Part shown: positions 5,833 through 44,623 of the stretch, one piece after another
Layout: every line of letters starts with the position of its first letter
Position numbering within the stretch: the first letter of the stretch is position 1
Assembly (NCBI GenBank): GCA_003215295.1
Contig: QCKN01000003.1
Span: forward strand, 62,001-126,000
Source: Prochlorococcus sp. AG-409-P03
GTDB lineage: Bacteria; Cyanobacteriota; Cyanobacteriia; PCC-6307; Cyanobiaceae
Direction of reading: 5' to 3'
Length of the DNA: 64,000 nt
Notes under the pieces: generated by a model
Databases searched by the model: none
What the model was told of the DNA's origin: nothing
The model's input: the letters and a program-made list of their open reading frames with translations, nothing else
Made by a program: the position numbers and the translations under genes

Positions 5833-6225
5833 TTACTTGTGCTCCTTATACTTTTCGAACTTTTTGGACTTCTGCTTTCCGTGTTTTCTCATGGTCCTAA
5901 CTGAATGTGCTTTAATGCTTGAAAACTCGGAGGATGGAGTAGAACTTCCAGGAGTAAACCCTTTGGCTACTCTACCGCTGCAAGAGGGAACTTGAGACTT
6001 TTGCTTTTTCCTTTGCTTGGTAATAACATAAATTCTTTTGGATCCTTTTGTTGACATCATTTGTCCAGGATATCCAGCGCAAACACCTTTTTCTAAGGTA
6101 TCGTATACCTTAACTTTTGATTTCGTAGCAGTGGCTTTTCCTGACTTATTTAAAGTGTTGTACTTACCTCTACCTGAAGGGTATCTTTTCCCTTTTGCTT
6201 CAAGAATTTGATCCAGGATGTCCAC
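5833..6225 (-). CDS. Small basic prohead-associated protein
   Basis: A 130-residue, very Lys/Ser-rich protein with a GTG start that shares one base with the stop of the upstream gene (TAGTG). The N-terminus, MDILDQILE, ends in I-L-E, a consensus site for T4-type prohead protease, and the rest is strongly basic. Position just before the protease gene suggests a prohead core or internal protein, comparable in place to T4 gp68. No known domain was recognised. Confidence 0.7.
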   Translation of the reverse strand: MDILDQILEAKGKRYPSGRGKYNTLNKSGKATATKSKVKVYDTLEKGVCAGYPGQMMSTKGSKRIYVITKQRKKQKSQVPSCSGRVAKGFTPGSSTPSSEFSSIKAHSVRTMRKHGKQKSKKFEKYKEHK

Positions 6226-6701
6226 TATTTTTTTCCTAAAATATTTAAGAGGTCCTGCCTTCTACTTTTTCGTGACTTTTTAGAAGTACCTGCGAAATTA
6301 GGGGAAATCCGACCGACTGTAGTTTTTGCTTCCCCACCTACAAAACCAGAGCCTGTCATTTCACGAAGAACAGAAGTTAACTCCCTAACTGCACCTTCAA
6401 AACGCTCAACTAATGCAGCATGTTCGTGCAATATTTGAGGTTCTTCAGGTGTAGAGATCTCAATTTCAGGAATTTCTTCTACTTCTGGTTGTTCTTCTGG
6501 CTCTTGTGGAGCTTCAACAGAAAAAGATTCGTTAAGAATCTGGTTTCGCATGTTACTAGGGACTTCAATGTCACTAATATCAGCTTGCCCTTTCTCTGCA
6601 TTAACGCCTGTAAAAGGATCTCTGGAGGTTGGAGTGGGACTTTCTAGTTCCTGCTCAATTAAGTTTAAAGCAAAGTCCCCTATGGACTCTACCGAACTCA
6701 T
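6225..6701 (-). CDS. Probable prohead core protein
   Basis: A 158-residue protein with an acidic, Pro/Glu-rich middle (about residues 60-95), a helical segment (about 95-120), and a short basic tail ending in SRRQDLLNILGKK. It overlaps the upstream acidic gene by ATGA and the downstream gene by one base, so translation is probably coupled. Context (acidic core gene before, protease after) suggests a prohead core component. No family was recognised. Confidence 0.6.
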   Translation of the reverse strand: MSSVESIGDFALNLIEQELESPTPTSRDPFTGVNAEKGQADISDIEVPSNMRNQILNESFSVEAPQEPEEQPEVEEIPEIEISTPEEPQILHEHAALVERFEGAVRELTSVLREMTGSGFVGGEAKTTVGRISPNFAGTSKKSRKSRRQDLLNILGKK

Positions 6702-42688: not shown

Positions 42689-43708
42689 TTAATTAATTAT
42701 TAGATAAAATAATGGGCTAACGATATGCTGATCAATTAAATCATATGAAACTTGAATAGAATAAGTACCAGTTCTTGAGCCCAAATCATCATCATTAAAA
42801 ATTGGAGCCTCCTCGCCTTCATCGTAGGTGTCTCCAGGTCGTTTACCTCTAAGGTCTGTTGTATCAAAATTCCAAACTATTGTATTATCTGAAGTTACTT
42901 CAACATCTGCTGAAGAAGCAACTAACACTCTAGCTGGAAGATTTACATCTTCATTATGCTTATGCATTTTAATCTCAACACCGCTAACAGAAGAGCCTTT
43001 TAATGCATTTTTAGTAGCTTCGTCAATATCTCGATTTTGAATCGTGATTTCAGTTCCTACCTTAATAGCAACATCAGAACCTAACCTTATGCGTCTGTTA
43101 AATAGTTTATTTTTTGCAGTGAGAAGTAAAGGCTGAGTTAAAGTTACAAAAGTATCAGCAAAAAGCTCAAAATCATTTATAACAACCTGCCAATCAGAAT
43201 TAGGGCTAAACTTTACTGTCCAAACATCAATGTATTCTGCGGTTGATGATGCGGTATTTTGAACAATAAACTGATTTACTCTATCAACACCTGAAATCAA
43301 TCCCGCATTATAACCATCTAAAACTACTGCATACTCACCAGGAGTCATACCTAAGTTATAAATACCGCTTGTTCCTGTATTGCTAAAGTCAGGTTCCGCG
43401 TAGTCTATAGGTTCCCCTGTATAGTTTCCTTCATCAAAATTACTAGCAATGAATGTTTCACCACCCTCTGCCGCAGGACCAAAGACCATTAAGGATTTCT
43501 CAGCACCTTCCTCCGAAATTAGACCATCATCGCCTAAAACTGTGTTAGGGGCTATATGGTCATTCTTGTTAAAAATGTGTACCGATCTAATAGCATAAGG
43601 GTTTCTAGGAATCCCATCATCTATAAAAAAGGATCTAAGCAGCACTCTAGAAAGTACGCTTGGTCTATTATGACGATCATTAACTGATGTTTGATTTACT
43701 AATGGCAT
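42689..43708 (-). CDS. Unrecognised structural protein downstream of tail-assembly gene
   Basis: A 339-residue protein, beta-rich with acidic loops, ending in QVSYDLIDQHIVSPLFYLIIN. No family recognised. Its first 29 bases overlap the -1 frame extension of the tail-assembly gene upstream, so translation is probably coupled to frameshifting ribosomes. Virion role inferred from neighbours. Confidence 0.65.
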   Translation of the reverse strand: MPLVNQTSVNDRHNRPSVLSRVLLRSFFIDDGIPRNPYAIRSVHIFNKNDHIAPNTVLGDDGLISEEGAEKSLMVFGPAAEGGETFIASNFDEGNYTGEPIDYAEPDFSNTGTSGIYNLGMTPGEYAVVLDGYNAGLISGVDRVNQFIVQNTASSTAEYIDVWTVKFSPNSDWQVVINDFELFADTFVTLTQPLLLTAKNKLFNRRIRLGSDVAIKVGTEITIQNRDIDEATKNALKGSSVSGVEIKMHKHNEDVNLPARVLVASSADVEVTSDNTIVWNFDTTDLRGKRPGDTYDEGEEAPIFNDDDLGSRTGTYSIQVSYDLIDQHIVSPLFYLIIN

Positions 43709-44623
43709 CTTTTTCTCGCTCCTGCTCTTCCATAAGAAGATTCATAAATATAACTCTTTCAGACCTAGTTAAGTGTAGAACATCGCTATAACTTAAGCCC
43801 ACATGCTTTATTAGTATATAGGCTTCTTGAATTAGGTCTTTTAAAGTTAATCCATCAGTTAATTCGGAGAGAAAAAATTTGGCGTAATCGGCAAGGCTAT
43901 CGCGTTGTGCTCACTACAGGTTGAACAAATAAATTTAACTTCAGTTTGAATACCGTATTCAGTATTCGATACTGCGTTAATTATTGTATGTAGATCTGAG
44001 ATGGGTAATCTCTTAATCACTTTGGCGATGACACCTTTATCTTTGCTGCCTCCTATTTCTGGAACAAACCTCCAGAGTTGGTCAAGTGTTTTGTCAGGGT
44101 TGGTAAGATAAGCCTCATCGGTAACCCTAGGCATTCTTACTTTACAAGTTTTTTTGATCTTTGGTAGATCAATCTCCTGAGGATCAGTAAAATCATCAGG
44201 AACATTAACATTGATTAATTTATCTAGTTCAATAGATAGTTTATTTTCAGCGTTACACTTAGAGCATAAGGACATGACTTTATACTCAGAGCCATAAGAT
44301 AATTCTCTAATTTTTAAAATAAGGAACAATTTATCCATTAAAAGCAGATTTTCAACATCTAAGCCCTGTACGCATCTAGATAGAAGTAGGTTAGCTCCAT
44401 CTATCGAAGGATCATTTTGTGCTGTAATAATTGCCTTTTCATCCTCAAAACTCATAGGACGAACAGAGACTTTTGTTTCATCAAAATTTGATCCATAAAA
44501 CTTTCCCCTGGAGGGGACTTCTACCTGTATCTCAACATCACTTGGAAGATGCTCTAAAATACTGGCAATTTCCTCTTCTTCAGTCAGAGAAAACGCTTCT
44601 GGGGTGGTTTCTTTCGTATTCAT
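43680..44623 (-). CDS. Frameshifted long form of tail-assembly protein (-1 fusion, about 314 residues)
   Basis: The 254-residue zero frame ends at 43859. The -1 frame is open from upstream of the slippery site to 43680 and has no ATG, GTG or TTG until the middle of its sequence, yet encodes a convincing helical peptide (63 residues, with LKDLIQEAYILIKHVGLSYS and LTRSERVIFMNLLMEEQERE). Shifting -1 at U UUU UUC joins Phe251 to this peptide. This is the layout of the lambda G/GT tail chaperones, known in many phages. The extension fills the 150-base gap before the next gene. The frameshift is inferred from sequence alone. Confidence 0.75.
43859..44623 (-). CDS. Baseplate hub/tail-assembly protein, T4 gp26-like (zero-frame form)
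   Basis: The 254-residue protein has VEVPSRGKFYG (34-44) and VSVRPMSFEDE (52-62), matching T4-type base plate proteins of the gp26 family, and two CxxC pairs (Cys120/123, Cys233/236) that may bind zinc. A good ribosome site (AGAGGT) precedes the ATG. The final codons, TTT TTC TCT CCG AAT TAA, include the slippery site, so this would be the majority product and the 314-residue fusion the minority. The divergent UvsW-like gene starts 28 bases away. Confidence 0.78.
   Translation of the reverse strand: MNTKETTPEAFSLTEEEEIASILEHLPSDVEIQVEVPSRGKFYGSNFDETKVSVRPMSFEDEKAIITAQNDPSIDGANLLLSRCVQGLDVENLLLMDKLFLILKIRELSYGSEYKVMSLCSKCNAENKLSIELDKLINVNVPDDFTDPQEIDLPKIKKTCKVRMPRVTDEAYLTNPDKTLDQLWRFVPEIGGSKDKGVIAKVIKRLPISDLHTIINAVSNTEYGIQTEVKFICSTCSEHNAIALPITPNFFSPN
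43871..43877 (-). promoter_or_regulatory. -1 ribosomal frameshift slippery site U UUU UUC
   Basis: In the minus-strand zero frame the heptamer falls as T TTT TTC, the canonical X XXY YYZ layout, four codons before the stop (TTC TCT CCG AAT TAA). The -1 frame read from there is open for 63 codons and ends inside the next gene. Confidence 0.75.

Follow-up and report, generated by a model that had tools for sequence, protein, structure and literature searches.

A probable −1 ribosomal frameshift in a putative chaperone gene for tail assembly in a T4-type phage

Introduction

Does the gp26-type gene in the phage DNA studied here encode one protein, ending at its own stop codon, or two? The gene lies on the minus strand of the window, that is, the whole stretch of 64 kb that was analysed, which is part of a contig of 130,604 bases whose gene coordinates agree with those of IMGVR_UViG_2716884398_000001. 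An original prediction, made from the sequence of the window, proposed a programmed −1 frameshift in this gene that follows the logic of the lambda G/GT chaperones. These tail assembly chaperones and their relatives were reportedly treated by Xu, Hendrix and Duda in 2004. They have also been reviewed in PMC5009743.

We consider it highly probable that the locus encodes a tail assembly chaperone of a T4-type phage in two forms, the longer of which arises via −1 ribosomal slippage. The majority of ribosomes would stop at TAA and release a 254-aa gp26-type protein (TAC-N), and a minority would slip back one base at T TTT TTC, where two tRNA-Phe would re-pair from UUU/UUC to UUU/UUU. The slipped ribosomes would read 63 more codons and produce a 314-aa fusion (TAC-NC) that ends in the helical C-terminal domain of gp51. 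If the two forms act like those of lambda G/GT, the tape measure protein may be coated by the short one and tube subunits recruited by the long one. We infer the occurrence and efficiency of slippage, as well as the chaperone role in the window phage; the slippery site, the conservation of the second frame, the selection on it, its homology and the architecture of T4 gp51 can be read in the sequences themselves.

Results and discussion

Sequence features of the gp26-type locus

The features of the locus, all on the minus strand, are as follows.
43859..44623, minus strand: 0-frame ORF for a T4 gp26-type protein of 254 aa (PF12322, phrog_150), the putative short chaperone, TAC-N
43874..43880, minus strand: overlapping in-phase heptamer A AAT TTT, common to the window-type lineage and rare in cyanophages
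43871..43877, minus strand: slippery heptamer T TTT TTC, in phase (from the sequence; recurs in relatives)
43859..43861, minus strand: 0-frame stop TAA (from the sequence)
43683..43871, minus strand: −1 frame of 63 codons, gp51-type C-terminal domain, the putative TAC-C (homology, dN/dS, HMM, model)
43680..43682, minus strand: −1 frame stop TAA (from the sequence)
42689..43708, minus strand: next gene, 339 aa, no family match; its ATG sits inside the −1 frame

The gp26-type protein matched PF12322 with 61.7 bits against a curated cut-off of 24.5 (E 1.1e-16) and phrog_150, ‘baseplate hub’, with an E-value of 6.8e-22. Its gene ends in CCA AAT TTT TTC TCT CCG AAT TAA. The original prediction of a canonical slippery heptamer in the right phase at the end of the 0 frame is therefore borne out by the sequence (43877-43871), in which T TTT TTC is followed by three sense codons (TCT CCG AAT) and then by TAA at 43861-43859. 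The −1 frame is open for 63 codons after the heptamer, also as predicted: it opens at CTC (43871), closes at TAA (43682-43680) and overlaps the next gene, whose ATG is at 43708, by 29 nt with the stop counted.

Such an arrangement is rare in the window. An in-phase T TTT TTC occurred only 3 times in 52 window genes (20,190 codons), and an in-phase A/T heptamer together with a −1 frame of at least 90 nt past the stop was present in only two genes, one of which was the gp26-type gene. The other gene (6225-6701, minus strand) has GGA AAA AAA TAG at its end, and the −1 frame there leads into the downstream ORF at 5833-6225 (minus strand), which has its own GTG start and an SD-like AGGA. This pair may represent either coupling or a second frameshift.

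Occurrence of the slippery site in related phages

The nearest relatives (L004, L097, L098 and L099; 43-46% identity in gp26) have all kept AAT TTT TTC and a −1 frame homologous to that of the window. All four distinct window-type sequences contain T TTT TTC with a homologous −1 frame. For cyanophages, syn9 gp26 was used as the query and 80 of the 597 loci found were kept. T TTT TTC lay one codon ahead of the stop in all 80 of them, and wherever the locus was long enough, the −1 frame was intact, with 60-69 codons. Thus, both elements are retained when homologues are compared, as the original prediction had asked. The same heptamer and a −1 frame were observed in 12 named phages, including Bacteroides and jumbo phages (LR756511, Atu_ph07): syn9, S-PM2, AG-345-D19, Citrobacter Ci1, Desulfovibrio 7757, Stenotrophomonas YB07, Aeromonas Ah1, KVP40, Rhizobium IC12, LR756511, Atu_ph07 and BS162P1. 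It should be noted that the heptamer-bearing loci are mutually non-independent, yet they span very distant lineages, and the slippery signal looks real because it has been kept across such distant relatives. The heptamer was absent from the locus examined in Vibrio phage D510. Nothing was found by searching IMG/VR with BS162P1 gp26, by searching the genome contigs with the window gp26 or by a profile scan with A1, and no PF12322 protein was found in the other 19 genomes near the source bin.

A chance explanation would be that Phe-Phe is a conserved protein motif and that the open −1 frame arose by accident or is the remnant of a gene, and Phe-Phe near the C-terminus of gp26 is indeed kept in most of the family. 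However, the invariance extends to the codons: elsewhere in cyanophage gp26, Phe is encoded by TTT 654 times and by TTC 255 times, whereas the slippery site is TTT-TTC in 80 of 80 loci. The preceding codon was T-final in all 80 loci and was mostly one of two unrelated serine codons (AGT in 40, TCT in 32). Codon usage indicates that the constraint at this site acts on the nucleotides, beyond Phe-Phe alone.

Initiation and selection in the −1 frame

The original prediction also held that the −1 frame has no early start codon of its own, which proved correct for the window: ATG, GTG and TTG are absent from the first third of the frame and the earliest possible start is a GTG, 59 nt beyond the 0-frame stop. 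The −1 frames of L004 and L097 are startless up to 89 nt beyond the stop, and that of Desulfovibrio phage 7757 contains no ATG, GTG or TTG at all. There was no start codon up to 45 nt beyond the stop in 18 of 80 cyanophage loci, in the four window-type sequences and in Desulfovibrio 7757. A usable start for the small frame is thus absent in the closest lineage and in several others.

On the other hand, a start lies near the stop in some relatives (at +5 in 34 of 80 cyanophage loci, at +2 in KVP40 and at −1 in BS162P1), and gp51 is annotated as a gene of its own in the records of S-PM2 and syn9. These ATG or GTG codons and annotations are what speaks for the small frame as a separate gene, expressed from a non-standard start codon or by ribosomes that re-initiate once they have terminated gp26. 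We regard this as unlikely: the position of the start is not conserved whereas the heptamer is invariant, a protein begun at the available codons would lack part of the conserved domain, and T4 gp51 carries its homologous domain joined to a gp26-like one. In relatives with an ATG near the stop, a free small product may be made in addition to the fusion that −1 slippage would yield.

Codon statistics, which had been suggested as a check, revealed protein-coding constraint in the −1 frame, with dN/dS far below 1. Between L004 and L097, the part of the frame past the stop had a dN of 0.007 and a dS of 0.44 (dN/dS 0.017); wider pairs gave dN/dS values of 0.14-0.47 with dS near saturation. In cyanophages, the median dN/dS of the −1 frame was 0.18, and the same columns read in the other frames gave 1.0 and 2.0. 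These substitution patterns indicate that the −1 frame is under purifying selection. In addition, a run of 13 identical bases (AGAAGCCTATATA; window 43815-43827, minus strand) within the −1 frame is common to the window, L004, L097 and L099, although synonymous sites are near saturation in the window-type relatives.

Homology to T4 gp51

An HMM built from cyanophage and other −1 frames matched the window peptide with an E-value of 5e-5 and T4 gp51, at its C-terminus, with one of 5e-6. Residues 1-201 of T4 gp51 form a PF12322 domain (E 3.9e-52). All 17 rows of the −1 alignment matched phrog_634, the gp51 family; the match of the window peptide alone was weak (E 0.077). The window peptide was modelled as three helices (pLDDT 86), in line with the helical peptide foreseen from the sequence; comparison of the C-domain model with the PDB gave no convincing match. 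By these profile matches, the −1 peptide is identified as the C-terminal domain of T4 gp51, and T4 gp51 appears as a gp26-like domain followed by this same C-terminal domain. Its architecture is therefore like that of the predicted frameshift product.

Profile homology to gp51, codon-level invariance at the site and a dN/dS far below 1 solely in the −1 frame together refute the chance explanation as far as sequence can, and we give it next to no credence.

Structure and genomic context

The model of the window gp26 (pLDDT 84.5) had HK97 gp13 (Z 6.1, rmsd 2.8 over 73 residues) and YqbN (Z 6.0, 3.6 over 82) as its best structural matches, although a Z of about 6 can stem from a common arrangement; the third-best match had a Z of 3.7. 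The HK97 gp13 match covers residues 28-111 of the model. Foldseek gave an E-value of 4.4, and a sequence search of the PDB found nothing. The modelled N-terminal fold is suggestive of the tail assembly chaperones of HK97 and YqbN. Given the gp51 C-domain in the −1 frame, the architecture of T4 gp51 and this fold, a chaperone in two forms would be expected, gp26 being the short and gp26-gp51C the long one. The lambda G/GT logic of the original prediction is supported by the chaperone-like fold and by T4 gp51.

With regard to gene order, the homologues in SP-15 and LIS04 lie between the tube and tape measure genes, the classical position; no tube or tape measure gene was recognised in the 64-kb window. 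The phage was correctly taken to be of the T4 type, as homologues of gp20, gp21 and gp23 are present: profile matches included Portal_T4 (6e-78), Peptidase_S77 (2e-25), Gp23 (5e-77) and gp25 (4e-10), and a terminase gene is also present. Because its gp26 is only ~20% identical to aligned cyanophage gp26, the phage is, on sequence grounds, no ordinary cyanophage. Its contig belongs to a bin whose MnmG is up to 81% identical to that of Prochlorococcus single-cell genomes, which marks the bin as a picocyanobacterium and a putative host. The window also encodes a NifU-like Fe-S cluster assembly protein in a phage (46243-46695, minus strand; phrog_8429, 1.9e-40). A literature search for DUF6760 found nothing.

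Possible stimulatory elements

An SD-like GAGGG is located ~10 nt ahead of the heptamer in cyanophages (L016-L095) and in most other T4-like phages. Its SD-likeness exceeded that of most other positions in the gene, and in cyanophages both of its codons were enriched: GAG was found in 54 of 80 loci vs 553 of 1911 (29%) elsewhere, and GGG in 21 of 80 vs 33 of 500 (7%) elsewhere. It is a candidate ribosomal stimulator of the dnaX type. No SD-like stimulator is present at the window site or in its lineage.

These observations bear on another route to the fusion, in which RNA polymerase slips on the six T (transcriptional slippage). A TTTTTT run is present in every −1 case, as such a process would need. 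However, the seventh base is always C, with seven T never found, and the codon phase is fixed, whereas with transcriptional slippage any phase would do and longer runs would be favoured; the GAGGG of cyanophages likewise points to the ribosome. We therefore consider this route very unlikely, far less likely than ribosomal slippage and also less likely than a separate gene.

No conserved hairpin or pseudoknot, which the original prediction had proposed to look for, was found downstream of the window site. The 80-120 nt downstream folded better than shuffled sequences (z −2.6 and −3.15), but the stem was rejected as a stimulator: its strong part begins ~45 nt past the heptamer, the relatives lack it (z 0.05 to −2.8 at 120 nt) and the alignment contains no compensatory changes.

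Comparison with known systems

Like lambda G/GT, the window locus would give a short protein and a −1 frameshifted long form, with the heptamer near the end of the first frame and a second frame without its own start, and the modelled N-terminal part of gp26 is suggestive of HK97 gp13. It differs in that the N-terminal protein belongs to the larger PF12322 family with further parts and in that the phage is contractile and T4-type. T4 itself appears to have the same two proteins, gp26 as TAC-N and gp51 as TAC-NC by a presumed assignment of gene numbers; there, each form has its own gene (26 and 51), whereas the window has one locus with a predicted frameshift. The gp26/gp51 loci of cyanophages and KVP40 share T TTT TTC and a homologous −1 frame with the window but have the upstream internal SD-like element that its lineage lacks. 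The TAC locus of Pseudomonas phage Adele and the Vandenendeviridae (PMC12846349) is also a myovirus chaperone locus with a −1 frameshift at a poly-T site; these phages belong to another family, and the likeness is one of description of site and locus.

As to novelty, the original prediction did not recall a description of this mechanism in a T4-type phage. Vladimirov, Gautam and Davidson (2022, Virology 566:9-15), as cited in PMC10885494 and PMC12846349, are credited with naming the tail assembly chaperone genes of T4-like phages. According to PRFect (PMC10885494), that study reports that some T4-like phages use a duplicated, fused gene instead of frameshifting, and according to the Adele paper (PMC12846349), it reports poly-T −1 signals in T4-like TAC-N genes. 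Frameshifting in relatives other than T4 may well have been described there already, to judge from these citations. The mechanism itself very probably holds, the hint of novelty is weakened, and the window locus is a further case of a known strategy, not a new kind of system.

The case also lends itself to a clear evolutionary comparison, in which frameshifting is set against gene duplication as the source of a two-form chaperone.

Relatives with the second frame in the +1 register

SP-15, LIS04, GXN1, LR756508, the Streptomyces BRock/LuckySocke group and Microcystis phage Mel-JY01 all have their second frame in the +1 register. Among the loci collected, a gp51-type domain in this register was seen in L005, L006, L007, L009, L014, L112-L126 and L128. 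In the Streptomyces group, TTT C was invariant at the end of gp26 (13 of 13 loci), and Phe codons elsewhere were 41 TTT and 43 TTC. The +1 frame had a dN/dS of 0.16 (1.0 and 1.75 in the other frames), and hhalign aligned its peptide with the −1 peptide as a homologue (probability 92%, E 7e-7). The TTT C motif is not universal, since LIS04 has TTT A and Mel-JY01 has TTT T. Judged from the reading frames, this class would use a shift of either +1 or −2.

It seems fairly likely that the gp26/gp51 family reaches the same C-domain via opposite shifts, that most lineages shift by −1 at T TTT TTC whereas Bacillus SP-15, Streptococcus GXN1 and phages of the Streptomyces BRock/LuckySocke type shift by +1 or −2, for the most part at TTT C, and that T4 has a duplicated, fused gene instead. 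If so, one orthologous gene would show three ways to the same two products.

Possible hidden gp51 genes

Sullivan et al. (2010; PMC3037559) noted that gp51 of cyanophages and marine vibriophages lacks ~200 N-terminal residues and has ~20% of the length, and cyanophages and KVP40 were described as having a separate, reduced gp51. With −1 slippage, gp51 would be short in these phages because gp26 provides the 200 residues when the frame shifts. The same study reported gp51 as missing in phage Aeh1. In such phages, a ‘missing’ gp51 may hide in an unannotated −1 frame, and many phage annotations could be affected. Aeromonas phage Ah1 (L107) has such an unannotated −1 frame after position 2744, which extends 57 codons past gp26 and appears to be a hidden gp51.
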